A stretch of 37,177 nt of DNA from positions 1 through 37,177 of the forward strand of contig DYHQ01000007.1 in assembly GCA_020724065.1 (NCBI GenBank), given 5' to 3'. Of this stretch, positions 17,588 to 32,034 are shown piece after piece. The notes under the pieces were generated by a model. That model ran no database searches and was not told the origin of the DNA. It was given only the letters and a program-made list of their open reading frames with translations. This DNA comes from Candidatus Puniceispirillum sp. Lineage in GTDB: Bacteria; Electryoneota; RPQS01; DYHQ01. The position numbers and the translations under genes are program-made. Position 1 is the first letter of the stretch, and the number at the start of each line of letters is the position of its first letter.

Positions 17588-17901
17588 TTTCGTGTGTGGC
17601 TGGGATGAAAGGCGAATTCGCTCGCGGTCATCGAAGCGGGGACAGGATAGACACCCGCTCCGTGACAGAGCGGGCAAACGACTTTCTCGGTCTTTCGTAC
17701 CTCAATTCTGCCTGTGCCGTGACAGGCGTAGCATTCCTTTCCTCCGGCGCCAAATCCTTTGCCGTCACAGTAAGAGCATCGGTACTCGTGTTCGTCCATC
17801 ACACAGAGATTATCCGTCCAACCTCGCCCGCTGCACTCCGGGCATGTTTTGGGTTCTCCCTCGCCGGAGGGAGGCGGAGTAGGTCTTTTTTCAGTGATCA
17901 T
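17584..17901 (-). CDS. Stand-alone DnaJ-type zinc-finger protein
   Basis: This 105-residue protein carries four CxxCxGxG-type motifs (CPECSGRG, CSYCDGKG, CYACHGTG, CPLCHGAG). That is the arrangement of the central zinc-binding domain of DnaJ, with two zinc sites expected. There is no J domain and no C-terminal substrate domain. It overlaps the protease gene and the permease gene by 4 bases each (ATGA on both sides), so it is translated as part of the hydrogenase cluster. A role as an assembly or redox chaperone for the hydrogenase complex is inferred from position only. The protein could also be a small thiol/zinc-buffer protein. Confidence 0.85.
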   Translation of the reverse strand: MITEKRPTPPPSGEGEPKTCPECSGRGWTDNLCVMDEHEYRCSYCDGKGFGAGGKECYACHGTGRIEVRKTEKVVCPLCHGAGVYPVPASMTASEFAFHPSHTRK

Positions 17902-18401
17902 GAGGGCTCCTCGCTTGAGTTTTGTCTAATCCAATTGCGGACAAAGTCCAGGGCTTGCTCGAGCGCGCCATAAACTGCTGGGGTTAATTCCTCAGAAAGG
18001 GTTTCGAGATCCTGCGCTTCGACCGCCAGCACATCCACGACATCGGGCATTTCCAATGAAAGTTGTTTTCCCAATTCGAGAGCTGTCGGCAGGCTGACTT
18101 GATGGCTGGTTGTCAAATGGTGCGATGGTGTCAGTGCTCCCGCAGGGAAACAGTGCAGCGTTCCGGGCTTCGCAGCTCCGGTGCGGATGGTATCCACAAT
18201 GAGCACGCGCTTGCGGCCCGTTAGCAGGTCGAGCAGGTGAAATCCTGCCACTGGCGCGAAAACAACATCGGCCGGGAGGTCGAGAAGAGTTCCATCCTGA
18301 AGTCTGCGCGCAACCTCGGGGCCGAATCTATCGTCACTGACGATCTCATTACCAAGACAAAGAACCAATAAGGGTCTTGGCGATGTCACGACATTGTCCA
18401 A
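17898..18401 (-). CDS. Hydrogenase maturation endopeptidase (HycI/HyaD-type, A31 family)
   Basis: This enzyme should cleave the C-terminal tail of the [NiFe] large subunit after nickel insertion. Family motifs are clear: LCLGNEIVSDDRFGPEVARRL, whose Asp/Glu binds nickel, VDTIRTGAAKPG, and SHQVSLPTALELG with the conserved His. The length of 167 residues is normal. The start is unusual: the frame opens with TTG at 18401 or GTG at 18389, and neither has a clear ribosome binding site, so the exact N-terminus is uncertain. It lies 39 bases after the large-subunit gene, whose product carries the matching cleavable tail. Confidence 0.93.
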   Translation of the reverse strand: MDNVVTSPRPLLVLCLGNEIVSDDRFGPEVARRLQDGTLLDLPADVVFAPVAGFHLLDLLTGRKRVLIVDTIRTGAAKPGTLHCFPAGALTPSHHLTTSHQVSLPTALELGKQLSLEMPDVVDVLAVEAQDLETLSEELTPAVYGALEQALDFVRNWIRQNSSEEPS

Positions 18402-18440: not shown

Positions 18441-19925
18441 TCAGCAATTGCGCCGCGCTGTTTGAACGATTTCGCCGCTTTCCGCATCGTGAATCACAAG
18501 TTCCATCGGCATCTCACCGGGGAGAGTATGCGTGGCGCACCCGAAGCACGGGTCGTAGGCCCGGAAAGCCATCTCAATGCGGTTCAGAATGCCATCGGTG
18601 ATCTGAGTTCCTTTCTTGACCAATCCCTCGGCGGCGCGTTTGATAGACATCGTGATGGGGGCATTGTTGTTCGTTGTGCCGACGATGAGATTTGCCTCCG
18701 TTACGATGCCGCTCTTATCGGTCTTATAGTGATGGGTCAGTGTCCCGCGTGGAGCTTCGACAATGCCCACGCCTTCCCCGACGATGCCCTGAGGCGGGCT
18801 GAATATCTTATCGGAAGTGATCTCATCGTCTTTGGCCAACGCCAGAGTCGCCTCGCACGCAAACACGAGTTCCACGACACGGGCCCAATGTGTCGCGAGT
18901 GTCGCGTTGACCGGCGTCTTGCCGCTCTTGTCTTTCGTCAGTGTCTCGTAGAATCGCTCGTATTCGGCTTGCGCCAGTGGTGTTACCATTCCGTCGGAGG
19001 CATTGAGCCGCGACAGTGGGGACGCCTTGTAAACGCCCGAATCCACTCCATCCACGAATCCCTTCCAGCCGATTTTCTTGAGGAAAGGATACTTGAGATA
19101 ACTGTACGGCTCGACATGCTCGGCCACATACTCCAAGTAATTCTTCGGTTCATATTTGCAGTGCTCTTTTCCGTCCGGTCCCACGACACGCACTTTGCCG
19201 TCATAGAAGTTCACCTTGTTGTTCGCGTCCACCAAGCCCATATTGTAGGTCTTGTGGGCATAGGTATCGGACAGAATGAGGTCCACATAAGCCGTGTTCG
19301 CCAGAACGACATCATTCACAATTTGAATGGTGAATTTGGAAAATTCCACCATCTCTTCGCCGATCTTGATCAACTCGGCTTGTTCTTCCTTGGAGACTCG
19401 TTTCGACATGCCGCCCGGAAGTGCGGTGACGGGATGCACCTTTTTTCCGCCGATGATTTCAATGATTCGTTGGCCTCGGGCTCTCTGAGCAATGACTTTT
19501 TTCCCTGCATCAATGCCGACTTTGGCGATGACACCGAGGATGTTGCGTTCGGCGGGAGGAGCGTCAGGGCCGCACACGAAATCGGGTCCCCCCAGTGCAT
19601 AGAAATGAGTGGTATGATCCCCGGCATAGAACGCATTGTACACTAAGTTGCGCAATTTGAACGCCGCTGAAGGAAGTGTCGCGCCAAACACCGCGTCAAT
19701 CGCCTTTGCCGACGCCATGTGATGAGCATCCGGACAAACGCCGCAGATGCGCGGAGTGATTTGAGCAAGCTCTTCCACCGGCCGCCCGACGCAAAACTGT
19801 TCAAAACCTCGAAGCTCCGGTACCTGAAAATAGCAGTTGGCCAAGGATCCATCGTCGTTCACGAAGAGATGGATCTTGCCGTGGCCTTCAAGACGGGTGA
19901 TGGGATCAATCACGATGCTTTTCAT
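18441..19925 (-). CDS. [NiFe] hydrogenase large subunit, group 3c-like (MvhA/VhuA type)
   Basis: This is the catalytic subunit that splits or forms H2 at the NiFe(CN)2CO site. The four nickel ligands are visible: Cys61 and Cys64 in RICGVCPDAHH (L1), and Cys460 and Cys463 in DPCFGCATH (L2). A 28-residue tail (TLPGEMPMELV... to the stop) follows His466 and should be removed by the adjacent protease. The length of 494 residues fits cytoplasmic group 3 enzymes; no Tat signal occurs on the partner subunit. Adjacent MvhD-like and HdrA-like genes point to group 3c (methyl-viologen-reducing, heterodisulfide reductase-linked). Its ATG overlaps the small-subunit stop by 4 bases. The group label should be confirmed by phylogeny. 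Confidence 0.93.
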   Translation of the reverse strand: MKSIVIDPITRLEGHGKIHLFVNDDGSLANCYFQVPELRGFEQFCVGRPVEELAQITPRICGVCPDAHHMASAKAIDAVFGATLPSAAFKLRNLVYNAFYAGDHTTHFYALGGPDFVCGPDAPPAERNILGVIAKVGIDAGKKVIAQRARGQRIIEIIGGKKVHPVTALPGGMSKRVSKEEQAELIKIGEEMVEFSKFTIQIVNDVVLANTAYVDLILSDTYAHKTYNMGLVDANNKVNFYDGKVRVVGPDGKEHCKYEPKNYLEYVAEHVEPYSYLKYPFLKKIGWKGFVDGVDSGVYKASPLSRLNASDGMVTPLAQAEYERFYETLTKDKSGKTPVNATLATHWARVVELVFACEATLALAKDDEITSDKIFSPPQGIVGEGVGIVEAPRGTLTHHYKTDKSGIVTEANLIVGTTNNNAPITMSIKRAAEGLVKKGTQITDGILNRIEMAFRAYDPCFGCATHTLPGEMPMELVIHDAESGEIVQTARRNC

Positions 19926-20893
19926 ACTTGCGCCCTCCGAAGGAAAGAATCAGCCAGCGTGAATCGGTAGAAGGTGCCGACGGGATCGGCGACTGTGGCG
20001 ATGATCTTGTCAATTTCTTCAGGATCCGTCGAATCAATCACGCTGGCGAGCGCGGAAATCATCTTCGCTCCTTGATCACGGACATTGATAGGCTTGCCAT
20101 AACATCCGCGACAGGGCATGCCCGCTTTCACACATTTCGCGCCGCATCCCGAACGCGTGGCCGGTCCCAGACACACTATGCCTTGCTCCATAAGGCAGAG
20201 GTTCGGCTCAGCGATAATCTCATAGGGCCGAATGAATTTCGTGATCTTCTTGATATTGCGCTCGCGAGGACATTCATCACAGCAGCTTTTCTCTGTAGCC
20301 CCCAGCACCGTTCCCTTGGGCGGCAGTGGTTTTCCATTCTTCAGAATGTCAATGACCGCGTCCACAACCGCAGCGATTTGATCAGACTGGGGTGGACATC
20401 CCGGAATAAGGTAATCCACATCCACGACTTGTTCCAGAGTGCGCACCGTATTCCACAGTCGCGGAATGGTGATTTCGCCTTCCGGAACCTTGGTTGTTGG
20501 TTGTGGGATAGTCTTGCCCGGATTGTCCAACGATGGCGCCTGAAGATAGACATAATCCAAGATAGAATCAAGAGTAAAAAGATTGGCCAGCGAAGGAATG
20601 CCTCCATCCGCCGCGCAACTCCCGAAGGCGCAAAGGACGACAGATTTCTGACGAAGAAGCTTAGCGATGTGGAAGTTTTCGTCACTGCGGATCGCGCCGT
20701 TGAAAAGCGTCAGTGTGATGGATTTGTCTTCCATCGCTTCCACATCGGCGTATTTGAAATCCATCGCACAAGGCCAGAAGACGACATCAAAGAAATCGGC
20801 GACATCGAGAATCTTCGCTTCAATGTCGAGGATGGCAATATCGCAACCACCACACGCCGCTGCCCAATAGATGGCAAGTTTTGGTTTCGCCAT
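19922..20893 (-). CDS. [NiFe] hydrogenase small subunit, group 3c-like (MvhG/VhuG type)
   Basis: The small subunit carries the iron-sulfur relay from the active site. The start is ATG at 20893 (MAKPKLAIYWAAACGGCD), with AGGAG 8 bases upstream; the track's longer form from 20959 lies inside the MvhD-like gene. Proximal cluster ligands are in AACGGCDIA, GSCAADGGIP and PGCPP. Further cysteines (CCDECPRE, PNLCLMEQGIVC, RSGCGAKC, MPCRGCYGKP) provide two more clusters, as in the MvhG/FrhG family. There is no twin-arginine signal, so the enzyme is cytoplasmic. It overlaps the large subunit gene by 4 bases and follows the MvhD-like gene closely. Confidence 0.92.
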   Translation of the reverse strand: MAKPKLAIYWAAACGGCDIAILDIEAKILDVADFFDVVFWPCAMDFKYADVEAMEDKSITLTLFNGAIRSDENFHIAKLLRQKSVVLCAFGSCAADGGIPSLANLFTLDSILDYVYLQAPSLDNPGKTIPQPTTKVPEGEITIPRLWNTVRTLEQVVDVDYLIPGCPPQSDQIAAVVDAVIDILKNGKPLPPKGTVLGATEKSCCDECPRERNIKKITKFIRPYEIIAEPNLCLMEQGIVCLGPATRSGCGAKCVKAGMPCRGCYGKPINVRDQGAKMISALASVIDSTDPEEIDKIIATVADPVGTFYRFTLADSFLRRAQV

Positions 20894-20903
20894 GTTTTTT
20901 CTC

Positions 20904-21371
20904 CTAAGAGGCTGCCGCGGAAATTTCCTGTGCTGTCCCCGCGGGATGTTCGGCATCAAAATTCAGCTCCCGAAGCTCAAGCGGCCCGAGCGTGCGAATC
21001 TCTTCCGTGAATCCCGTCACGACACTCTGGAACCGAGCTCCTTCGGACGCGGAAACCCATTCCAAACGCAGTCGCCGCGGATCAATTCCCATGTCCGCAA
21101 GCAGTTTTTTCGTCAGCGGAATTCGGCGCATGCATTTGTAGTTGCCTTCGACATAATGGCAATCCCCAGGATGGCAGCCGCAGATGAGCACCCCGTCGGC
21201 GCCCGAACGCAAGGCGTTCAGGATGAAGCCGGGATCCACGCGACCGCTGCACATGACACGCACGCTCCGCATATTCGCGGGATACTTCATTCGGGCCGTT
21301 CCCGCCAGGTCGGCGCCGGTGTAGCTGCACCAGTTGCAGAGAATCCCCAGGATTTTCGGTTCAAAGCTCAT
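20904..21371 (-). CDS. Hydrogenase iron-sulfur linker subunit, MvhD/FrhD-like
   Basis: MvhD carries a 2Fe-2S cluster and connects the [NiFe] hydrogenase to HdrA in methanogens. The 155-residue protein shows the family features LCNWCSYTGADLAG, VRVMCSGRVDP and ICGCHPGDCHYVEGNYK. It overlaps the stop of the upstream HdrA-C fusion gene by 4 bases (ATGA), which strongly suggests that their products are made together and contact each other. In this organism it is the expected bridge between hydrogenase and the C-terminal half of HdrA. Confidence 0.92.
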   Translation of the reverse strand: MSFEPKILGILCNWCSYTGADLAGTARMKYPANMRSVRVMCSGRVDPGFILNALRSGADGVLICGCHPGDCHYVEGNYKCMRRIPLTKKLLADMGIDPRRLRLEWVSASEGARFQSVVTGFTEEIRTLGPLELRELNFDAEHPAGTAQEISAAAS

Positions 21372-23116
21372 ACAAGGATTCCTTCGATTTGCGCATAGAT
21401 TTGTTCATCGGTGAAGTGCCGCGCGGCGATGGCACCAGTCGGACATGCCGCCACACAAGTGCCGCACGCCTTGCACATGGCGGAATTCACATTACTTACT
21501 TTCTTCGTCTCGTCAAAGCTGATAGCGTTATAGGGACACAATCCGTTGCAAATGCGGCAACCACTGCAGAATTCTTCGGCAATCTCAGCGTAGGCGGCGT
21601 CCATGAGAATCTGGCCCTGAGCGAGCATCTTCATGGCCTGGGCTGCAGCGGCACTGCCTTGTGCAACGGTGTCCGGAATATCTTTGGGGCCTTGACAGAC
21701 GCCCGCCAGATAGATCCCTTCGGTCGTGGTGGAGACAGGCCCGAGCTTGGGATGGGATTCGATAAACCATCCGTCGGCACCGGCGGAGATATTCAATTTT
21801 CGAGCCAGGTCCGTAGCGTCACTACGAGCCTCCAAGGCCGAGCAAAGAACAACCATGTCCACGGGGATTTCTCGGAATTTTCCAATGAGCGTGTCTTCAC
21901 AACGCACCAGGAGCGCGCCGTCACCCGCACCGGACCGATTCGGGACAATTTCCGTTCCCTTACCGCGAATTACATTGACTCCTTCGTCGAGAATTCGCTG
22001 GTAGAACTCTTCGTAGCCTTTGCCAAAGGCTCGCATATCAACATAGAGTTGATACACCTCGGCATTGCTCTTTTCCTTGACAAGGTGGGCAAACTTCAGG
22101 GCATACATGCAGCAGACGCGGCTGCAGTACTTGTGGTAATTCTCGTCGCGGCTCCCAATGCAATGCAGGATGGCTACCGACCGAGGTTCCTCACCGTTTT
22201 CCATCACAATTTTCCCACCTGTGGGGCTGCCCGCATTATTCATCTGCTCAAATTCCGCACCCGTAAGGATATTGGGATATCTTCCATATCCAAGTTGCTT
22301 CATCGGAGTTGGATCGAAATCGTCGAATCCCGTCGCCACAATGACCGCCCCAATCTCGAATTCCTCAATCTCATCTTTGTCGTCGTAGTGGATGCAATCC
22401 TTTGGACAAACCTTGGAGCACAGCATGCATTCGCCTGTCTTGAAGTGAATGCAATGCTCCGCATGAATCCGAGGGACATTCGGAATCGCCTGGCGGAAGG
22501 GAATCGTGATAGCGGCATTCGGGCCAAGGCTGAGTTTCGAGTGAATGATGCGTTCCTCGGCATCCGTCATTCGGATGTGGCCTGTCGGACAGACCTGAGC
22601 GCAGGCTCCGCAGAGAATACAGGTCTCGGGCGTCCGTTCGTACGGAGTAGAGACCTCTCGTTTTGAGCCTCGGTCGGCAAATCCGATAGCGTACGCCCCA
22701 ACCACATCTTGGCACATTTGGACACATAGGCCGCAGAGAATGCAGGATTCCTTGGGGTTTTCTATCGGGAATCGGGTCGTTTCAAGCCCCATCTCGGCGG
22801 CCATCTCCTGGATGATTTTCGCCGCGGGTGCCCGGGCCATCAGGAGCTCAAGGTTCATTCTCCGAAGCTTCAGCACTCTCTCGGAATTCGTCCGAACCTT
22901 CACCGACTCCCTCAGAGGATAATTGCAGGCTGTAACCAGTCGCGTGCGTTTTCTCCGGATCACTTCGACGACACAAATTCTGCAGACGGCATACGGTTCG
23001 ATGAGCTCGTTATAGCAGAGAGTGGGAATCTTTATGTCCAACGCATTCGCAGCATTCAAAATCGTCGTTTCCTCTTCGACTTCAATCTGTTTGCCGTCAA
23101 TCTCAATGGAAATCAT
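21368..23116 (-). CDS. Fusion of NuoG/HydA-like 2Fe-2S + 4Fe-4S ferredoxin with the C-terminal half of HdrA
   Basis: A 582-residue electron-transfer protein with two parts. Residues 1-70 are a plant-type 2Fe-2S domain (Cys34, 45, 48, 64), as in NuoG, HoxU and HydA. A short NuoG-like linker (RRMNLELLMA) follows, but the usual His-Cys4 cluster is missing. Two 4Fe-4S motifs follow (ESCILCGLCVQMC, ETCILCGACAQVCP). From about residue 200 (NAAITIPFRQAIPN) the sequence matches only the second half of HdrA: a Cys-rich cluster site (residues 222-241), VIVATGFDDFDP, CIGSRD, YCSRVCCMYALK, the late FAD-site segment GIYLAGVCQGPKDIP, and two terminal 4Fe-4S motifs. The GxGxxG dinucleotide motif is absent; it is on the separate 28,821-29,801 protein. 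The gene sits between nuoF and mvhD, matching a hub role. Confidence 0.88.
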   Translation of the reverse strand: MISIEIDGKQIEVEEETTILNAANALDIKIPTLCYNELIEPYAVCRICVVEVIRRKRTRLVTACNYPLRESVKVRTNSERVLKLRRMNLELLMARAPAAKIIQEMAAEMGLETTRFPIENPKESCILCGLCVQMCQDVVGAYAIGFADRGSKREVSTPYERTPETCILCGACAQVCPTGHIRMTDAEERIIHSKLSLGPNAAITIPFRQAIPNVPRIHAEHCIHFKTGECMLCSKVCPKDCIHYDDKDEIEEFEIGAVIVATGFDDFDPTPMKQLGYGRYPNILTGAEFEQMNNAGSPTGGKIVMENGEEPRSVAILHCIGSRDENYHKYCSRVCCMYALKFAHLVKEKSNAEVYQLYVDMRAFGKGYEEFYQRILDEGVNVIRGKGTEIVPNRSGAGDGALLVRCEDTLIGKFREIPVDMVVLCSALEARSDATDLARKLNISAGADGWFIESHPKLGPVSTTTEGIYLAGVCQGPKDIPDTVAQGSAAAAQAMKMLAQGQILMDAAYAEIAEEFCSGCRICNGLCPYNAISFDETKKVSNVNSAMCKACGTCVAACPTGAIAARHFTDEQIYAQIEGILV

Positions 23117-23125
23117 CTGTCCTCC

Positions 23126-24955
23126 TTAGGAGATCTGGATGGCGTCAAACTTGCAGACATCATAACAAACCCCGCATTTCTTGCAGGCATCTTGAATGAC
23201 GGAGTGAGCCTTGTTCTTCTCACCGACAATCGCTTTCTCAGGACACTGTGCCCGGCAGACTCCACATCCGTGGCCTTTCGTGACGCACAGGTTAGGATCG
23301 ATGGTATAGACATTCAATTGCCGGCAGACACGGGCGGGGCACTTTTTGTCTCTGATGTGGACCTCGTACTCCTCACGGAAGTAGCGCAAAGTTGTCAGAA
23401 CCGGATTGGGGGCTGATCCGCCCAAGGCGCACAGGGAGCTGTCTATGACATAATGTGACAGGTCCTCTAAAAGCACCAGATCTTCTTCGGTGCCTTTCCC
23501 GTCCGTTATTCTCTGGAGAATTTGCAGCATCCTCAGCGTGCCCTCGCGGCAAGGGGCGCATTTGCCACACGATTCATCTTGGGTGAAGGTCAGGAAATAT
23601 TTGGCCATGTCCACCATGCAGTTATCTTCGTCCATGATGACCATACCCCCCGAGCCCATCATGGAGCCGGCCTCGGTCAACTGCTCATAATCTACCTGCA
23701 AATCCAGAAGCTCTGCCGCAAGAAAACCACCCGAGGGACCTCCAGTCTGCACCGCTTTGAACTTCTTCCCCTTGGGAACACCGCCTCCAACATCGAAAAT
23801 GATCTCGCGCAGGGTGATTCCCATGGGGACTTCCACGAGCCCGGTGTTGTTGATCTTTCCGGCCACGGAGAACACTTTGGTACCCTTGCTCCCTCCCCAC
23901 GGATTCTCGCTGACATCTCCGGTTCCGATGGATGTAAACCAGTCTACTCCTCTCATGATGATGGCTGGGATGGTGGCCCAGGTTTCCACATTATTCAGAC
24001 AGGTGGGTTTATTCCATAGGCCGTGCTCCACAGTGTGGATATACTTCGCTCGCGGTTCTCCAACTCGTCCTTCGACCGAAGCCATCAGGGCGGTGGACTC
24101 GCCGCAAACGAAGGCACCGGCACCACGGCGAATGTCCACATCAAACTTGAAACCCGTGCCGAAGATGTCGTCGCCAAGCAGGCCGTATTCCCTTGCTTGA
24201 TTGATGGCGATAACCAATCTCTCGCGAGCCAGCGGGTATTCCTGCCGGACATAGATGTAACCCTCACTGGACCCGACAGCAAAAGCGCCGATGACCATCC
24301 CTTCAAGAACGGAATGAGGGTCCCCCTCAATGATACTCCTGTCCATGAATGCCCCAGGGTCGCCTTCGTCCGCGTTGCAGATCACATATCTGGGTTCGCC
24401 CTTGGCTTTCCGGCAGGATTCCCACTTGACTCCCGTGGGGAAGCCACCTCCGCCGCGACCGCGAAGCCCCGAGGCTTCTATCATCTGAATGACCTCGTCG
24501 GGGGTCATGGTGGTCAGGACCTTGGCCGACGCGCGGTACCCATCACGGGCGATATAGTCGTCAATGTTTTCGGGGTCAATCATTCCCCGATTCCGGAGGG
24601 CGACCAACATCTGGCCTTTGAAGAAGGCGATGTCGTTCATCTTCGGAATGTGGATTTTCTCTTCGGGAGGAACATACATCAGCCTGGGGACTGGCCGGCC
24701 CTTGAGGAGGTGCTCTTCGACCAGGTAGGGAATATCCTTGATTTTCAGGAGTTGGTAGAAGATTCCGTCGGGTTGGACGACGGCGATCGGACCGGCACCG
24801 CAGAAGCCATTGCATCCGGTGGTGACCACCTGGACTTCGTCGGCCAGGCCTCGTTTTTGGATCTCTTCCTCGAAGGCTTTTTTGATTTCCAAGGAGTGGT
24901 TTGAGACACAGCCCGTCCCGGCGCAAACCATCACATTAGCCCGATAAGGCTTCAA
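23126..24955 (-). CDS. NADH-binding subunit, NuoF/HndC/HydB-like
   Basis: This is the FMN- and NAD(H)-binding subunit of a soluble NAD-linked hydrogenase or bifurcating complex. Residues 1-95 form a thioredoxin-like 2Fe-2S domain (Cys11, 16, 48, 52). The NuoF core has the NADH/FMN-binding stretch GLRGRGGGGFPTG and CNADEGDPGAF, then an SLBB region and the 4Fe-4S site SCGKCAPCREG with a later Cys in SLCALGG. The C-terminus adds two 4Fe-4S ferredoxin motifs (CGVCRAQCPEKAI and CKKCGVCYDVCKFDAI). This domain order is typical of HydB/HndC rather than of respiratory NuoF. The length of 609 residues is standard for that type. It lies between the HndB-like and HdrA-C fusion genes. Confidence 0.93.
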   Translation of the reverse strand: MKPYRANVMVCAGTGCVSNHSLEIKKAFEEEIQKRGLADEVQVVTTGCNGFCGAGPIAVVQPDGIFYQLLKIKDIPYLVEEHLLKGRPVPRLMYVPPEEKIHIPKMNDIAFFKGQMLVALRNRGMIDPENIDDYIARDGYRASAKVLTTMTPDEVIQMIEASGLRGRGGGGFPTGVKWESCRKAKGEPRYVICNADEGDPGAFMDRSIIEGDPHSVLEGMVIGAFAVGSSEGYIYVRQEYPLARERLVIAINQAREYGLLGDDIFGTGFKFDVDIRRGAGAFVCGESTALMASVEGRVGEPRAKYIHTVEHGLWNKPTCLNNVETWATIPAIIMRGVDWFTSIGTGDVSENPWGGSKGTKVFSVAGKINNTGLVEVPMGITLREIIFDVGGGVPKGKKFKAVQTGGPSGGFLAAELLDLQVDYEQLTEAGSMMGSGGMVIMDEDNCMVDMAKYFLTFTQDESCGKCAPCREGTLRMLQILQRITDGKGTEEDLVLLEDLSHYVIDSSLCALGGSAPNPVLTTLRYFREEYEVHIRDKKCPARVCRQLNVYTIDPNLCVTKGHGCGVCRAQCPEKAIVGEKNKAHSVIQDACKKCGVCYDVCKFDAIQIS

Positions 24956-24979: not shown

Positions 24980-25363
24980 TTATTGAGTGCGTTCACTCCC
25001 GACGGCCAGCGCATACTCTTGAACGGGGCGGCCGCCCAGGACATGCTCAAGGAATATCCGGCGGATCTTGTCCTCCGTGAGGTCAACATATTTCACCGGT
25101 GCCTCCTGTAGCAACTCGACGGTGGCCATGGGCTCGCGACTGCACAGTCCGGCGCACCCGGAAGTGGTGAGGATGACATCCTTCACATCTTGTTCTTCAA
25201 CGAGCCGCAGCAGGGTATCGATGATTTTTCGGGATCCGGCGGCGATACCGCAGGTTCCCATGTGAACGGTGACTTTGGCGCGGCCGGCTCCTTCACGAAG
25301 GAGCGTCGTCCGCCTCACCCGTTCACTGATCTTCTCCAGATCTTCTATGCTCAGCTTTGGCAT
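24980..25363 (-). CDS. HndB-like thioredoxin-fold 2Fe-2S ferredoxin
   Basis: This small electron carrier (127 residues) belongs to the family of HndB from the NADP-reducing hydrogenase and relatives in HydABC clusters. A helical N-terminus (LSIEDLEKISERVRR) precedes the thioredoxin-like ferredoxin fold with VHMGTCGIAAGSRK and TSGCAGLCSREP. Three cysteines are visible, which I recall as usual for this family. It sits 9 bases after nuoE and 24 bases before nuoF, forming the typical E-B-F order. Confidence 0.88.
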   Translation of the reverse strand: MPKLSIEDLEKISERVRRTTLLREGAGRAKVTVHMGTCGIAAGSRKIIDTLLRLVEEQDVKDVILTTSGCAGLCSREPMATVELLQEAPVKYVDLTEDKIRRIFLEHVLGGRPVQEYALAVGSERTQ

Positions 25364-25372
25364 TTCCCCTCC

Positions 25373-25843
25373 TTAGTCCGAGTATTTGTCCAGAACTTTG
25401 GGTGCATTCACGGGGGTCACAAACCCGTGAAGTTCTCCGTCCACGATGACAATCGGGGCCAGACCACAGGTTCCAACGCAACCGGAGATTTCCAGGGTAT
25501 ATTTCAAATCCTCGGTGGTTCCTCCGCACTTCACCTTCAGGTGTCTTTCCAGGGCTTCCACGATCCGGGGGGCACCCAACGCGTGGCACGGGGTTCCCAT
25601 GCAGACACAGATTTGGTGTTTTCCGCGGGGCGTCAGACTGAAAGCATTGTAGAACGTAGCGAGACCATAGAGGGTACTGTGGGGCACGCCGACCTCATGG
25701 GAAATCTGGTCCAGGGCCGGGAGCGGCAAGTAGTTAAATTCCGATTGCACATCGTGCAGCATTTCGATGATGAGATCCCTCCTCTTGTTCCATTTTTGGA
25801 TGATTTCCTGAACTCTGGCCGCCTGGGCTACTTGGTTTTCCAT
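25373..25843 (-). CDS. NuoE/HndA/HydC-like 2Fe-2S subunit
   Basis: This 156-residue subunit carries the N1a-type 2Fe-2S cluster that pairs with NuoF-like proteins. The N-terminal helical bundle has LPLPALDQISHEVGVPHSTLYG-type sequence followed by TFYNAF. The thioredoxin-like domain shows the cluster ligands CMGTPC and CVGTC. It starts the NAD-linked block, 68 bases after a HATPase gene. The pairing with the HndB-like and NuoF-like genes downstream indicates a soluble NAD(H) module. Confidence 0.93.
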   Translation of the reverse strand: MENQVAQAARVQEIIQKWNKRRDLIIEMLHDVQSEFNYLPLPALDQISHEVGVPHSTLYGLATFYNAFSLTPRGKHQICVCMGTPCHALGAPRIVEALERHLKVKCGGTTEDLKYTLEISGCVGTCGLAPIVIVDGELHGFVTPVNAPKVLDKYSD

Positions 25844-25911: not shown

Positions 25912-26439
25912 TCACCGCAACTCTGGCCAGTTTTTCCTGACCAGATTTACCACTTCGAGTGCGTTCATCGCCGTCAGGTCGCCTTTCGTTTTCAGCTTGT
26001 CCGTATCGAACCGAGATTTGTGTCCGTCTTTCCGGTGTAGATACACAAATCGAATCTCCGGGTGACCTATAATCAAGGTGATCACTGTCTTTGCCATGTC
26101 GCCCAAAGGCTTTCGGTCAATGTGGCTATATTGAAAGGTTGCCCTTAGTTTCGTTCCCTGTCCAGCCTTCGATTGAACTTCGAGATCTCCGTTTGCCTGC
26201 CGGGCCGCTTCTCGAAAGAGAGACAATCCCAATCCTACCTTTCGGACCGTCTTCGTAGTAAAAAACGGATCGAGAGCCTTCTTCACCGTCCCTTCGTCCA
26301 TACCTTTTCCATCGTCGGCAATTTCAATGCTAAGCAAGTCCTTCCTCAAATCCTCGCAGATCTCAATCTGAATTTTCCTGGCTCCGGCGTCTATGGAATT
26401 CTCGACGATGTCCAGTATATGCAAGGAAAGGTCTTCCAT
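25912..26439 (-). CDS. HATPase (GHKL) domain protein
   Basis: This 175-residue cytoplasmic protein has the ATP-binding fold of histidine kinases and anti-sigma factors: N-box DIVENSIDAGA, G1 box DDGKGMD, F-box-like DPFFTTK, G2 box VGLGLSLFREA and a GxGT motif (AGQGTKL). There is no phospho-acceptor His domain or sensor. A C-terminal extension (about 120-175) is not recognised. Similar small ATPases accompany NuoE/HydC-type genes in [FeFe] hydrogenase clusters of fermentative bacteria. It follows the PHP gene by 12 bases. A regulatory role is likely, but the target is unknown. Confidence 0.82.
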   Translation of the reverse strand: MEDLSLHILDIVENSIDAGARKIQIEICEDLRKDLLSIEIADDGKGMDEGTVKKALDPFFTTKTVRKVGLGLSLFREAARQANGDLEVQSKAGQGTKLRATFQYSHIDRKPLGDMAKTVITLIIGHPEIRFVYLHRKDGHKSRFDTDKLKTKGDLTAMNALEVVNLVRKNWPELR

Positions 26440-26451
26440 GGGCCCCGTGCC

Positions 26452-27195
26452 TCACCGGCCACGGGCAATCCTCCGGTTCCCCTCATTCCTCAATGCCAAC
26501 TTGAGTTCCTCAAATGACCCCTCTTCCAGTACAAGGGCGGTCGCTCCTGAGCCGATATCTTCCAAATAGTGGGCATCCGAGGAGCATAGGAAAGGGTACT
26601 TTTTGTATTCGCTGAATCTCACTCGAGCTTCTTCCAGTTTCATGCGAGGAGAAATTTCCAGAGCGTCGAATTTCAATTCGGGCGGAATGAATCCCAATTG
26701 TCCGATAATCCCGAATCCTTCCCGGTCAATGTGAGCGGCGATGGCCAATCCGTTCAAAGAATGAATGGAGTCAACGACCTTTTCCACGGAGAGATTGGTG
26801 GCGCCGATCAGAAGCCTTCGATTGAAGTATAGTACTTCTCCTTCTGCGTTCACGACCACCTGCATGCCAAAGACCTTGTCGTCGTTTTCTCCCTCCAGAT
26901 TGTTGTAGATCAAAGCCTGCAGTTCAAGGGCATTATCCACACGGTCGAATAGGGCACATACATGGACTTCTTCTTTCGATGTCACCTCGATTCCCGGAAG
27001 GACGATCAGGCTTTCTCCCTCGGATGCTTTGATGACGGCTCCGGAATTCTCCGAAGAATTATGATCGCATATGGCAATAAGATCAATTCCTCTCTTCACG
27101 GCCTCTCTCACAATCGCCGCTGGCGACATTTCCAAATCTCCACAGGGAGACAGGCAACTATGGATGTGCAGGTCGGCTCGAAATTCCCTTAGCAT
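26452..27195 (-). CDS. PHP-domain metal-dependent phosphoesterase-like protein
   Basis: The 247-residue protein has the four PHP motifs: DLHIHSCLSP, CDHNSSEN, the central EVTSKEEVHV and HID...FLCSSDAHYLED. These His/Asp residues bind a cluster of metals in phosphatases of the histidinol-phosphatase and polymerase-associated type. The substrate is unknown; trPH-like phosphoesterases and signalling roles are both possible. The start overlaps the upstream DRTGG gene by 7 bases. The regulatory setting suggests turnover of a small phosphorylated signal, which is inference. Confidence 0.85.
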   Translation of the reverse strand: MLREFRADLHIHSCLSPCGDLEMSPAAIVREAVKRGIDLIAICDHNSSENSGAVIKASEGESLIVLPGIEVTSKEEVHVCALFDRVDNALELQALIYNNLEGENDDKVFGMQVVVNAEGEVLYFNRRLLIGATNLSVEKVVDSIHSLNGLAIAAHIDREGFGIIGQLGFIPPELKFDALEISPRMKLEEARVRFSEYKKYPFLCSSDAHYLEDIGSGATALVLEEGSFEELKLALRNEGNRRIARGR

Positions 27196-27527
27196 TCCCC
27201 AAGCAGCCCATACAACTTCCCTGCCAATTGAAAGGTCGCCAATCGAGTGGTCATCAGAGGAATCTTCTCTTCCTCTGCCCTCTCGATGGTCTCCTTCTCG
27301 GCTTCGCGCCCATTGACGAGGATAATGCCTGCCAAATCCTTGAGAGTGGCAACGGCCACGATATTAGGATGGACTTGAAGAGTCACCCAGAGCTGGCCCT
27401 CTTTTGAGTTTGCCATCACATCACTCAATAAGTCGCTGACATAGGCACCGGTTATCTCATGTGTGAGATCACCGCTTGCGCTTTTGACTTCAAGACCCAA
27501 GTTTTCAATGATGGTCGCCAGAGTCAT
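27189..27527 (-). CDS. DRTGG-domain protein (second copy)
   Basis: This 112-residue protein resembles the DRTGG domain that is often found with CBS domains and in phosphotransacetylase-like proteins. Sequence features are TLATIIENLGLEV, a central SDLLSDVMANS and EKIPLMTTRLATFQLAGKLYGL. It is a paralogue of the protein at 28,472-28,819: both open MTL-x-x-II-x-x-L and share a LMSDV/LLSDVM motif and an LLTTSLPMFEACGKLY-like ending. It overlaps the upstream CBS-HATPase gene by 23 bases and the PHP gene by 7. Ligand and role are unknown. Confidence 0.8.
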   Translation of the reverse strand: MTLATIIENLGLEVKSASGDLTHEITGAYVSDLLSDVMANSKEGQLWVTLQVHPNIVAVATLKDLAGIILVNGREAEKETIERAEEEKIPLMTTRLATFQLAGKLYGLLGEC

Positions 27528-28482
27528 GTTTCACAGCTCCATTTAGTTGAACGGCAATCTCAAGGCGGGTTCCCTTGCCCACGGTTGATTCCAGATGCAT
27601 CGTGTCCGCACATTTTCGTATGTTCGTCAAACCCATTCCTGCGCCAAAGCCCAAATCCCTGACCCAATCGGGTGCTGTCGAAAACCCAGGCTCCATTGCT
27701 TTTTTAATGTCAGGGATGCCGGGGCCGCTATCCACGGCCTCCACTCGGATTTCCCGGGGGGTTACTTGAGCAGTAATCTCACCTCCGTCGGTAAAAACCA
27801 CGATATTCATCTCCGCCTCATAGGTGGCAATCGCGATGCGTCGGATAATCTTTGGAGGGATTCCCATCCTTCTTAAGGTTTTCTTTAGCCCACTGGAGGT
27901 TCTGCCTGCCCGGCTGAAATCCTTGCCTGTCACCTTGTACTGGAAAATGAGAGTGGTTTTGTCAGCGATGATGTCCTCGAAGAAATAGCTGGCCCGATAG
28001 CGATGTATCTCCTCTTCATGGTAGTCTATTTCTATTCTCTTCAGCAGACCACGAATGATATCCCCCTTCGTGATTACCCCCACCAATGCCCCATTTTCCC
28101 GACTAATCACCGGAAAACGGCCATACCCCCGCCGGTCAAATTCTTGCACCGCTCGGACCAAGGGCTCATCATCATACAGAGTTATCACATCGCGGCTCAT
28201 CCTGTCTCTCACGAGGTTGTTCATCTTGCCTTCAGAAAGGCATTTGACAAAATCTTCAATGCTGACGAGGCCCACCAGTGTTGTTCCTTCGACTACAGGA
28301 ACACCGGAAATCCGCTTATCGTGCAATAGTACCCGGAGCTCACTCATCAGGTTATGGGGGCTGACCGTAATGACATCTGTGACCATAACCTGGTTCACCT
28401 TTATCTCGTAGACTAACTCCTGAACTTTGGTGATGGCCTTTTCCGCATCCATGGAGGAACCTGTTCTGTCTTCATTCGTCAT
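27505..28482 (-). CDS. CBS-pair protein with C-terminal anti-sigma-type HATPase domain
   Basis: Residues about 28-150 hold two CBS motifs (VNQVMVTDVITVSPHN... and DRMSRDVITLYDDEP...), which usually bind adenosyl nucleotides. Residues about 180-315 form an RsbW-like GHKL ATPase (IATYEAEMNIVVF, VDSGPGIPDI, FGAGMGLTNIRKCAD, VGKGTRLEI). The fusion suggests that energy charge or another nucleotide controls a kinase or anti-sigma activity. The start may be MTNEDR at 28482, which overlaps the upstream stop by 11 bases, or MDAEKA ten codons later; neither has a strong ribosome binding site. It lies between two DRTGG genes. Confidence 0.85.
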   Translation of the reverse strand: MTNEDRTGSSMDAEKAITKVQELVYEIKVNQVMVTDVITVSPHNLMSELRVLLHDKRISGVPVVEGTTLVGLVSIEDFVKCLSEGKMNNLVRDRMSRDVITLYDDEPLVRAVQEFDRRGYGRFPVISRENGALVGVITKGDIIRGLLKRIEIDYHEEEIHRYRASYFFEDIIADKTTLIFQYKVTGKDFSRAGRTSSGLKKTLRRMGIPPKIIRRIAIATYEAEMNIVVFTDGGEITAQVTPREIRVEAVDSGPGIPDIKKAMEPGFSTAPDWVRDLGFGAGMGLTNIRKCADTMHLESTVGKGTRLEIAVQLNGAVKHDSGDHH

Positions 28483-28819
28483 AACCTGAGAGCCCGTTCA
28501 TGTACAATTTCCCGCAGGCTTCAAACATTGGAAGGGAAGTCGTTAACAAAGTGATTCCACTTTCCCGGGCCAAAGTGATCAGTTCTTGGCTGGGTTGTTT
28601 TCCTCTCACGAAGCAAACAATTCTTATCTCGGCTATTTCCGCTGTGCGTACGACCTGGGGATTGTTCAGCCCTGTCAATAGTATCGCCCCAGGCTTAATA
28701 AAGGCCAGCACATCACTCATGAGATCGCAGCCACAACCCGTTCTGACTTTGGCGTCAAGATTGGTATTTCCGGCCACGACGCGACAATCAAGAGTTTTTA
28801 TGATTTCCCCAAGAGTCAT
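28472..28819 (-). CDS. DRTGG-domain protein (first copy)
   Basis: The 115-residue protein is the paralogue of 27,189-27,527: MTLGEIIKTLDC, CDLMSDVLAFIKPG, ILLTGLNNPQVVRTAEIAE and GITLLTTSLPMFEACGKLY. It begins 1 base after the stop of the HdrA-N gene and overlaps the CBS-HATPase gene by 11 bases. It is part of a five-gene regulatory block inserted between the Hdr genes and the NAD module. Ligand and role are unknown. Confidence 0.8.
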   Translation of the reverse strand: MTLGEIIKTLDCRVVAGNTNLDAKVRTGCGCDLMSDVLAFIKPGAILLTGLNNPQVVRTAEIAEIRIVCFVRGKQPSQELITLARESGITLLTTSLPMFEACGKLYMNGLSGYDE

Positions 28820-28820
28820 T

Positions 28821-29801
28821 CTATTTCGTCACGCCTTCCTTGGGCTGTCGGCTTAATGCCGCTCCGGCTTGGGTGTCCGCGAGGGTCAGCAAGTCATGGT
28901 CGGGCTCAAGTAACGCCGAAATGCCCGTTTTCAGCCGCGTACCCTCTTTGAATATCTTGTCGCCGATAATGAGCTTGCACTCTTGCGGGACAGGAAGGCT
29001 GGGACAGGCATCATAGCATGAGCCGCAACTGTTGCATAGAGTGGTATCCACATACCGCGCCTTCTTTCGGACCTTGATCTTGAAGTTTCCAACATAGCCT
29101 TGGACTTCTTCGATTTCCGCATAGGTGAGCAATCGGATGTTCGCGTGTTTTCCCACGGAAACCATCTTCGGGGTCAAAATGCACGCGGCACAATCCAGCG
29201 TGGGGAAGGTTTTGTCAAATTTGGCCATGTGGCCCCCGATGGACTCCTCTTTCTCCACCAGAATCACGTCACAGCCGGCGTCGGCAATCTGCAATGCCGC
29301 TTCAATTCCCGCAATGCCTCCTCCCACTATCATGACGCGCTTCGTGATGTCAATGCGGCGCATCTCCAGGGATTTCTGGAATTTGACGCGAGCCAAAGCA
29401 CCGTTGATTAGCGCATAGGCTTTCCGCGTCGCGGCATCACGCTCCGTCGTCACCCAACTACATTGTTCGCGTATATTCACCATTTCAAACAGGTAGCGGT
29501 TCAGGCCGCCTCGTGCCACCGCCGCGCGAAAAGTGGGCTTGTGCATCAGGGGGCTGCATGCCGCCACGACCACTCGGTTCAAATTCTGTTCTTGAATATC
29601 CTTGATGATGAGTTCCTGACCGGGTTCAGAGCACATGAATTTGTAATCTCGTGACACCACAACATCCGGATGATTCGCCATCGCCTTGGCAATGTGAGCG
29701 ACATCCACCATCTTGGAGATATTCGTTCCACAATGGCAAATGTATAAGCCGATTCGGCAAGGGGGGACCTTGCCATTGCCGCCTTTTGAGTCTTCGCTCA
29801 T
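28821..29801 (-). CDS. N-terminal half of HdrA (FAD-binding heterodisulfide reductase subunit A)
   Basis: This 326-residue protein matches HdrA only up to the end of its first 4Fe-4S domain. It has the HdrA N-terminus (GLYICHCGTNI, RDYKFMCSEPGQELI, VAACSPLMHKPTF, NIREQCSWV), the FAD motif VGGGIAGIEAA (residues 159-169), a flavin-site segment FDKTFPTLDCAACIL, and CNSCGSCYDACP (Cys256, 259, 262, 266). Where a normal HdrA goes on with an AIYIPFPQAVPN segment, this protein instead ends in a short unrelated tail. The missing second half is on the 21,368-23,116 protein. Its ATG overlaps the hdrB stop by 4 bases. It should bind FAD, but the late FAD-contact segment is on the other polypeptide, so an intermolecular flavin site is possible. 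Confidence 0.88.
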   Translation of the reverse strand: MSEDSKGGNGKVPPCRIGLYICHCGTNISKMVDVAHIAKAMANHPDVVVSRDYKFMCSEPGQELIIKDIQEQNLNRVVVAACSPLMHKPTFRAAVARGGLNRYLFEMVNIREQCSWVTTERDAATRKAYALINGALARVKFQKSLEMRRIDITKRVMIVGGGIAGIEAALQIADAGCDVILVEKEESIGGHMAKFDKTFPTLDCAACILTPKMVSVGKHANIRLLTYAEIEEVQGYVGNFKIKVRKKARYVDTTLCNSCGSCYDACPSLPVPQECKLIIGDKIFKEGTRLKTGISALLEPDHDLLTLADTQAGAALSRQPKEGVTK

Positions 29802-30682
29802 GCTGCGACCTTCTTATCTTTTGATTTCAGTTTCAAATCCTTGGGTCTCACAACCAATGTGTCCATGCCCAGTTTCGACGCCTCGATGTCCAGTGCGAGT
29901 CCGAGCAACTGAGTGAAATAGACAATGGGCATCTCGTGTTTTGTCTGATATTTCTCGTTGATTTTCGCCTGATACCCCTCGAGATTCATCTGGCACAGAG
30001 GGCACGCCGTGGCGATGACTTCGGCTCCGCTCTCCTCGGCGTTGAGGAGAAGTTCATTGTTGAGATCCAGGGCGATTTCTTCATAGGTGGTCATGAGCAT
30101 ACCACCACAGCACCGCACCTTGTCGGCAAAAGGAACTACATCAGCGCCCAAGGCAGAGAGCAGGTGGTCCATGGTCATGGGATCATCCAGTTCATCGAAA
30201 TGTTTCACGGGACGCACAATCTGGCAACCATAGTAGGGGGCCACTTTCAGTCCGTCAAAATAGCTTTTGGCTCTCCTTTCAAGTGTGTCGAGGCCCACAT
30301 CATTGACCAGAATGTCCAAAGGATGGCGAATATCCACCTGTTTATCGTAAGTCAAATTGGCGGCTTTCAAGGCGGAAAAAATTTTATCGCGAACCTTGGG
30401 GTCCCAGGAAATATACCGATTCGCTTTTCGGAGAATCGTGTAACAACTGTTGCAGGGCGCGCAAATGTCACAGCCCATGTGCTGCGCGATGGCGAGATTC
30501 CGCGCGGCAACTGCATAGGCGACGGTTTTGCTGATGGACATATACATGGTAGCGCCGCAGCAGTTCCAATCTTCAATCTCGCGAAGCGTAATGCCGAGGG
30601 CCTTGAAGACCTCACGCACAGACTGATCATAGGGCTTGCTGGTGTGCTCGAGGCTGCAGCCGGGATAGTACGCAAACTCCAT
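29798..30682 (-). CDS. hdrB: Heterodisulfide reductase subunit B (HdrB-like)
   Basis: HdrB houses two non-cubane 4Fe-4S clusters in paired CCG domains and reduces disulfides in methanogens. Both CCG units are visible: YYPGCSLE, DWNCCGAT, APCNSCYT and YYGCQIVR, VRCCGGML, ACPLCQMNL. The 294-residue length is normal. The last about 25 residues are Lys-rich. It begins 1 base into the hdrC stop (TGATG) and overlaps the HdrA-N gene by 4 bases. CoM-S-S-CoB is not expected in a bacterium, so the acceptor is unknown; another thiol-disulfide protein or an electron carrier is possible. Confidence 0.92.
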   Translation of the reverse strand: MEFAYYPGCSLEHTSKPYDQSVREVFKALGITLREIEDWNCCGATMYMSISKTVAYAVAARNLAIAQHMGCDICAPCNSCYTILRKANRYISWDPKVRDKIFSALKAANLTYDKQVDIRHPLDILVNDVGLDTLERRAKSYFDGLKVAPYYGCQIVRPVKHFDELDDPMTMDHLLSALGADVVPFADKVRCCGGMLMTTYEEIALDLNNELLLNAEESGAEVIATACPLCQMNLEGYQAKINEKYQTKHEMPIVYFTQLLGLALDIEASKLGMDTLVVRPKDLKLKSKDKKVAA

Positions 30683-31272
30683 CAGATACCTTCCAATTCT
30701 TTGGCACGGGCAATAATTGCTCTCACTTCATGCACCTTCTTGATCTTTGTTGGTCGGGTTGCCAGCCGACCCCGTTTCATCATAGAGAGGCCAAATCCTG
30801 CGCTTGACATGAGTCTCATAGGGTTGGTAGCAAGAAGATATCGGATTCCCAATCCCAACTCAAAATTCCGGCCATATTTGTAGAGATTCGAAACGAAGGC
30901 TTCCGACAATACATGGACCGGAAATCTCTTGGGAAAAATCTTCTTGTCTATGGCAAGCCGCTTCAAGGCATAGAGTGTTTCCGTCACCTTGATTCCCGAT
31001 GGGCATCGGACGCGGCACGCGTAGCACGAAGCGCAGATCCAAATGGTGCGGCTATGCAGGATCTCTTCAATCATGCCGGCGCGGAATAGAGCGACCACTT
31101 GCCGAGGAGTGATATCCATCCAACGGGATACGGGGCAAGTCCCCGTGCAGGTGCCGCATTGGATGCAATTCTTGATCTTCTCACCGTGAGGCATGCCGAT
31201 CACCTCTTTGAGGAATGCCTCTCGTAGCTCGGCTTCGCGTTTTGTCTTGATGGGTTCAAGTGTTTTGGGCAT
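30682..31272 (-). CDS. hdrC: Heterodisulfide reductase subunit C (HdrC-like)
   Basis: HdrC relays electrons between HdrA and HdrB through two 4Fe-4S clusters. Motifs are NCIQCGTCTGTCPVS and WICASCYACRVRCPSG. The preferred start is ATG at 31272 (MPKTLEPIKT), with GGAG 5-6 bases upstream; the track's TTG at 31290 has no such site. The product is 196 residues, normal for HdrC. It is the first gene of the roughly 20-kb minus-strand cluster, 70 bases downstream of a Rex-like operator within a promoter. Confidence 0.92.
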   Translation of the reverse strand: MPKTLEPIKTKREAELREAFLKEVIGMPHGEKIKNCIQCGTCTGTCPVSRWMDITPRQVVALFRAGMIEEILHSRTIWICASCYACRVRCPSGIKVTETLYALKRLAIDKKIFPKRFPVHVLSEAFVSNLYKYGRNFELGLGIRYLLATNPMRLMSSAGFGLSMMKRGRLATRPTKIKKVHEVRAIIARAKELEGI

Positions 31273-31290
31273 ATATACTCCAAAGCTCAA

Positions 31291-32034
31291 CCTTTCTTAG
31301 GTGCTGAGCGTGTTCCTTCCCAACCGCGACCGTCAAACGAAATAATGTGAAACTTTTCACATACTTTTCAAAAAAAGTAGACCGGGCCTACTGGTCGTCG
31401 TCTTTCGAGGTTCTATCCTCCGCCCATTGTGTTTCCAATATAAGTATAAAAAATGCGAAAAGCAAATCCCTTCTCATCAGATTTGCCGAGCTGCAGTTGA
31501 CATCTATAAATACAAATACATAAGATGGTCAGAAGCACCACCCAGAAATCGCCATGTTGCAAAACACAACAGTTCATCGAAAGGTCGTTGCGAGTGGCTT
31601 GCGATGACAGGCGGACCCTGCCCAATCCTCGGCACCGAGTGCGGCCACAGCCCGCTCGGACATGAAGATACAAGACCTCGAGGTCAAGTACTGGGTGAGC
31701 ATGTCATGAACTGGCTCGAACCTCAAGTCTCCGCCTTGACCATTCGTATGGTGACGAATTGTTTGTTCTTTCTTTGGGGCTGCGTGTGGTAAGGACATTC
31801 GCCTAACGCGACGGGCAGCTTCCGCGGAAACGAATCTGGAACAAATATTGCGTTCTATTTTCTGGAATCAATATGAAACGAGGCTCTACAGTCTGCCAGT
31901 CTCTCGGTCGGGTGATTAGGAACAGTTTCCGAAAATCACTATAATATAGCTCAGGATCTGGTATCCTCTTGGGGCAAGACTCGTGTGTGGCAGTTGTGGA
32001 CGCGACGGATTAGACAATATGGGAGAAGGAGAAG
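31291..32034. other. 744-base intergenic region between divergent transcription units
   Basis: No supported gene. The minus-strand promoter/operator for hdrC lies at 31342-31371. A perfect TATAAT (31940-31945) upstream of the 32,035 gene has a poor -35 (TTAGGA, 18-base spacing). A plus-strand TTGACA at 31497-31502 with weak -10 candidates has no clear gene to serve. ORFs of 121 codons (+) and 86 codons (-) occur, but show no ribosome site, domain or recognisable composition. The remainder is AT-rich near 31,430-31,530 and otherwise unremarkable. Confidence 0.6.
31342..31371 (-). promoter_or_regulatory. Promoter of the hdr-hydrogenase cluster with an embedded Rex-like operator
   Basis: On the minus strand TTGAAA (31371-31366, -35) and CATTAT (31347-31342, -10) are 18 bases apart. 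The spacer is nearly filled by a perfect inverted repeat, ATGTGAAA-CT-TTTCACAT (31345-31362). It closely resembles the GTGAA-N4-TTCAC core of Rex repressor sites (for example TTGTGAAATATTTCACAA). Rex senses the NADH/NAD+ ratio, and the operon encodes a NAD-linked enzyme. A repressor bound here would block polymerase. The Rex assignment is inference; no rex gene is in the window. Confidence 0.6.

Follow-up and report, generated by a model that had tools for sequence, protein, structure and literature searches.

A predicted Rex operator at the head of an Hdr-linked [NiFe] hydrogenase cluster, conserved before hdrC in relatives

Results

An inverted repeat upstream of hdrC, the first gene of a cluster for heterodisulfide reductase (Hdr) and [NiFe] hydrogenase subunits, is very probably the operator of Rex, a repressor that senses NADH, as predicted from its sequence. 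We analysed a 37,177-nt stretch of DNA (hereafter the window; features in Table 1) together with the draft assembly it belongs to (G000) and the genomes of relatives. The preliminary description of this DNA had proposed a Rex-type site, a proposal now supported by the conservation of the site, the shape of the motif, the content of the putative regulon and the occurrence of the motif in genomes without CRP/FNR proteins.

Table 1. Features of the hdrC upstream region and of the genes downstream of the predicted operator
Feature	Position	Strand	Basis or remark
Candidate -35 hexamer TTGAAA (weak)	31366..31371	-	consensus match only
Predicted Rex-type operator ATGTGAAACTTTTCACAT; minus strand reads ATGTGAAAAGTTTCACAT	31345..31362	.	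8-bp arms, 2-bp spacer; kept in orthologous upstream regions
Candidate -10 hexamer CATTAT (weak)	31342..31347	-	overlaps operator's proximal end
GGAG, ribosome-binding-site-like, before hdrC	31278..31281	-	direct reading
hdrC, first operon gene (ATG 31272-31270)	30682..31272	-	start backed by aligned start of relatives
hdrB (CCG domains)	29798..30682	-	profile match
HdrA N-terminal part	28821..29801	-	matches HdrA2 profile 1-264
Accessory block: DRTGG, CBS+HATPase, DRTGG-like, PHP and HATPase proteins	25912..28819	-	profile matches
NuoE/HoxE-like subunit	25373..25843	-	profile match
Small protein without family match, between nuoE and nuoF	24980..25363	-	conserved in G006
NuoF-like, NADH-binding subunit	23126..24955	-	profile match
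NuoG/hydrogenase-type iron-sulphur N-terminal domain fused to HdrA middle/C-terminal part	21368..23116	-	profile matches
VhuD/MvhD-like subunit	20904..21371	-	profile match
VhuG-like small [NiFe] hydrogenase subunit	19922..20959	-	profile match
VhuA-like large [NiFe] hydrogenase subunit, both CxxC motifs (RICGVC, DPCFGCATH)	18441..19925	-	profile match and motif reading
Hydrogenase maturation protease	17898..18401	-	profile match

The palindrome and its promoter surroundings

Direct reading verified the perfect 8-bp-armed repeat with a GTGAA-N4-TTCAC core that had been reported earlier; its distance from hdrC, given then as 73 bases, measures 72 bp to the ATG and was right within one base. ATGTGAAACTTTTCACAT fits the 18-bp inverted repeat TTGTGAA-N4-TTCACAA, with mismatches confined to its end bases, one on each side. 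Perfect inverted repeats with 8-bp arms are common enough in the window (approximately five expected by shuffling); hence, the palindrome by itself has little meaning, and a chance palindrome without function would account for that much. However, the specific TGTGAA-N4-TTCACA core occurs only once within the window and in 0/5000 sequences obtained by dinucleotide shuffling of the 200-bp region before hdrC, and the chance explanation, the probability of which we consider practically negligible, is refuted by the conservation of the site before orthologous hdrC genes across genera and phyla.

The operator had also been placed between -35 and -10 hexamers. A promoter scan recovered the same arrangement (TTGAAA-18-CATTAT, minus strand, 31371-31342; 9/12 letters agree with the consensus, and shuffled sequence would yield 0.3 promoter-like sites); however, the match is weak, the -10 hexamer runs into the operator, and the arrangement of the two hexamers around the operator varies among the hdrC upstream regions of relatives and is not kept. 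TTGAAA/CATTAT is a plausible but weak candidate for the hdrC promoter. Directly upstream of the candidate -35 hexamer lies a terminator-like hairpin, AGTAGGCCCGGTCTACT, followed by TTTTTT (31376-31392, minus strand), which is not kept in the upstream regions of relatives.

Conservation before orthologous hdrC genes

The preliminary description had staked the Rex assignment on the motif recurring before orthologous clusters in relatives, and this is what we found: 15/79 orthologous hdrC loci score at least 13/16 motif letters, against a mean of 0.18 and a maximum of 2 loci at the same threshold for 60 permuted half-sites. The nearest relatives include genomes labelled candidate division KSB1 and Calditrichaeota, and the orthologous upstream regions bear TTGTGAATATTTTCACAT, ATGTGAAATATTTCACAG, TTGTGAAATATTTTACAT and similar sequences. 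The site is absent upstream of most hdrC orthologues below ~55 % identity, and no good site was found upstream of hdrC in G016, in which rex is present. Distant orthologues display mixed GTGAA/TTAAC arms, which we take to be a Rex-like form of the site.

Several relatives possess two sites, which lie 63-129 bp and ~194-284 bp before the point where the HdrC match begins, whereas the window has the near site only, with no second site before hdrC. At hdrC in G001, G003, G007, L077, L080 and L084, the second Rex-like site lies ~105-160 bp further upstream than the near one. At four of these loci (L038, L047, L077 and L080), TTGC begins exactly 6 bases past the site, possibly representing the -35 element of a shared promoter.

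Rex or a CRP/FNR-family regulator

ATGTGAAACTTTTCACAT contains a perfect TGTGA-N6-TCACA, a core common to CRP/FNR and Rex sites, and a regulator of the CRP/FNR family (CRP, HcpR or similar) could be envisaged in place of Rex, the more so as cNMP-binding proteins are present in G003, G004, G008 and G011. We compared 27 sites picked by their shared outer TTGTGA-N6-TCACAA letters only, blind to the inner positions. Of these sites, 22/27 have A at position 7 and 20/27 have T at position 12, and their centres are W-rich (A/T), as in the published Rex consensus TTGTGAA-W4-TTCACAA (PMC2883068); a generalised Rex consensus of the same form is quoted in PMC5317091. The central six bases of a CRP site should vary freely, and the inner positions match the Rex consensus and not that of CRP. 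The TTAAC arms of some distant sites also argue against CRP/FNR.

Moreover, no cNMP-binding domain (PF00027) was found in G000, G001 (96 % complete), G006 or G007 (97 %), and the motif is enriched in G000, G001 and G007 despite this. G000 has two CRP-type HTH (PF13545) matches, but one is a DtxR-type protein encoded next to FeoB and the other is ParB. Rex is therefore favoured on account of the motif details, the regulon content (below) and the several motif-bearing genomes without CRP/FNR proteins; a CRP/FNR-family site is very unlikely here and, for the family, already largely refuted.

Further sites in the genomes

Occurrences of the motif with at most two mismatches were counted genome-wide against a reversed-pattern control in eight genomes, and the count exceeded the control in all eight (14 vs 3 in G000, 24 vs 2 in G001 and 25 vs 1 in G004, but only 3 vs 1 in G006). 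Several such sites fall within open reading frames and were excluded from the target list. Copies before fermentation, respiration or NADH-related genes, which the preliminary description had suggested looking for, were recovered. A pyruvate:ferredoxin oxidoreductase (PFOR) gene lies just downstream of a site in G000, and sites of at least 12/16 letters also lie ~82-152 bp before PFOR in G001, G003, G009 and G011. In G003, sites lie before nuoA and before the genes for acetate-CoA ligase, glutamate dehydrogenase and pyrophosphatase. The downstream genes in G004 encode GAPDH, a cytochrome bd-like (Cyt_bd-like) subunit and an enzyme resembling alcohol dehydrogenase, and in G001 a site precedes the citrate synthase gene. 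This gene list is of the kind expected for Rex, while single two-mismatch sites within it may be due to chance.

The G000 site at gdhA (C12:14415) has no conserved counterpart ahead of this gene in G003, G004 or G007 and was set aside as a probable chance match. Rex-like sites also occur ~420-440 bp before the ORF for a class II (B12-dependent) ribonucleotide reductase in G000 (C98:4062, L169) and G001 (C8:249, L180).

The location of rex

A search for a Rex homologue, as either the Rex N-terminal domain or the full protein, returned none in the G000 draft assembly; however, the N-terminal domain is present in 38 of the 41 genomes covered by the search, among them G001, the sole relative from the same family; nearly all genomes of the order have rex. 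The Rex proteins of relatives have an intact HTH and GxGxxG motif, and that of G001, which matches solved Rex structures at 1e-46, is a full family member by sequence. In G001, rex follows gyrA and converges with tatD, and many further members of the phylum likewise have gyrA next to rex. The corresponding flanks in G000 both coincide with contig ends: the gyrA match on contig C91 reaches the last base (5749 of 5749), and contig C168 stops ~80 bp past tatD, behind the same spoIID-tatD pair. Because both expected neighbours of rex end contigs and the genome is 88.7 % complete, we infer that the missing gene is best explained by an assembly gap. A third neighbour, the protein encoded immediately before rex in G001, finds a 29 % match but no orthologue in G000 and does not help to establish synteny.

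Alternatively, the species may have lost rex, leaving an operator that has not yet decayed. The failure to find rex in G000 would fit such a relic, as would the single operator before hdrC where several relatives have two; in G010, another assembly without rex, neither hdrC nor PFOR is preceded by a good site. On the other hand, both rex neighbours lie at contig ends in this incomplete genome, the arms of the palindrome still match perfectly, a site remains at PFOR as well and the genome-wide enrichment persists (14 vs 3). A relic is thus very unlikely, and a functional Rex operator is the preferred reading. The combination of no rex and no good site in G010 also fits Rex control, albeit as one case.

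No site indicative of autoregulation was found at the rex genes of genomes from the same taxonomic order. In a genome outside the phylum (L069; G039, contig C61), rex immediately precedes an hdrC homologue, which links Rex and Hdr genes by neighbourhood.

The downstream operon and its enzyme

The genes from hdrC to the maturation protease fit a single operon because the intergenic gaps are short or negative, with the exception of 68 bp before nuoE. The VhuA-like subunit retains both CxxC motifs and, together with profile matches that lie below the curated cut-offs, this points to a [NiFe] hydrogenase of the Mvh/Vhu (group-3c-like) kind associated with HdrABC and NuoEF. As in group 3c-Hdr clusters, the large subunit carries the two nickel motifs and the VhuDG and HdrABC genes are linked; HdrA is split. 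The enzyme had been described earlier as an NAD-linked hydrogenase; the assignment is corrected to a [NiFe] group-3c/Vhu-like enzyme with HdrABC and NuoEF. A HydA-type [FeFe] hydrogenase was ruled out by the VhuA profile match and both CxxC motifs.

HdrA is divided into three parts, with profile positions 1-264 in the first, 264-640 behind the NuoG/hydrogenase-type iron-sulphur domain and the tail in VhuD; all relatives with these genes show this three-way split. The accessory genes (DRTGG, CBS/HATPase, PHP, HATPase) inserted in the operon occupy the same place in G006 and are absent between hdrA and nuoE in G001, G007 and G011. The clusters of G001, G006 and G011 retain nuoEF, while those of G003, G004 and G008 have hdr directly linked to vhu, with no nuoEF, and the operator is still present.

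Discussion

Rex binds DNA as a dimer at low NADH and is released by NADH. At a low NADH/NAD+ ratio, a Rex dimer on the operator would block minus-strand transcription of hdrCB-hdrA-nuoEF-vhuDGA; on a rise in NADH, Rex would leave the operator, permitting the Hdr/[NiFe]-hydrogenase complex to be made and reductant to be rebalanced. The Rex that binds the site would presumably be encoded in an unassembled gap of this genome, and both the direction of regulation and the physiological direction of the enzyme (H2 sink or H2 uptake) are presumed in this scheme.

Comparable systems are known. The Rex operator sites of Staphylococcus aureus overlap or adjoin promoters and mediate repression at low NADH (PMC2883068); they share the inner core and spacing of ATGTGAAACTTTTCACAT, whereas the predicted site described here has A/T end bases, belongs to another phylum and precedes a different target. 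In Caldicellulosiruptor bescii, Rex sites lie before PFOR and before the operons for [NiFe] and [FeFe] hydrogenases (PMC6391272), and the combination of hydrogenase genes and PFOR recurs here; however, the C. bescii enzymes are the Ech membrane hydrogenase and Hyd, in contrast to the Hdr-linked, group-3c-like soluble [NiFe] enzyme predicted here. The promoter of Hnd, the NAD-linked bifurcating hydrogenase of Solidesulfovibrio fructosivorans, has a predicted Rex site (PMC10084766), but Hnd is an [FeFe] enzyme without Hdr subunits, unlike the present cluster. Caldithrix abyssi belongs to a related phylum, and its predicted Rex site, cTGTGAATCAATTCACAt, precedes rex together with an [FeFe] hydrogenase. 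An hdr/group-3c [NiFe] cluster without an assigned function is likewise encoded in the C. abyssi genome, and the excerpt of PMC5317091 reports no Rex site for it. The same paper describes bacterial clusters of heterodisulfide reductase and group 3c [NiFe] hydrogenase as having no known function.

That Rex controls hydrogenases and PFOR is already known from Caldicellulosiruptor; what is new is the predicted link to the Hdr-3c cluster across uncultured lineages. We propose, tentatively, that the split-HdrA Hdr-[NiFe] cluster, widespread in uncultured KSB1-, Calditrichota- and Zixibacteria-related lineages, could belong to the core of the Rex regulon whether or not it includes NuoEF, serving as an NADH-responsive reductant valve, often under two operators, and not as a constitutive enzyme. 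A conserved Rex operator at the head of the cluster would tie Hdr-3c clusters to NADH balance and predicts that the cluster is induced when NADH/NAD+ rises. The sites also outline a putative Rex regulon (PFOR, nuo, GAPDH and a cytochrome bd-like oxidase) for a phylum without cultured members. The predicted switch is an ordinary one, yet it would couple a hydrogenase cluster with no assigned role to the NADH level of the cell.
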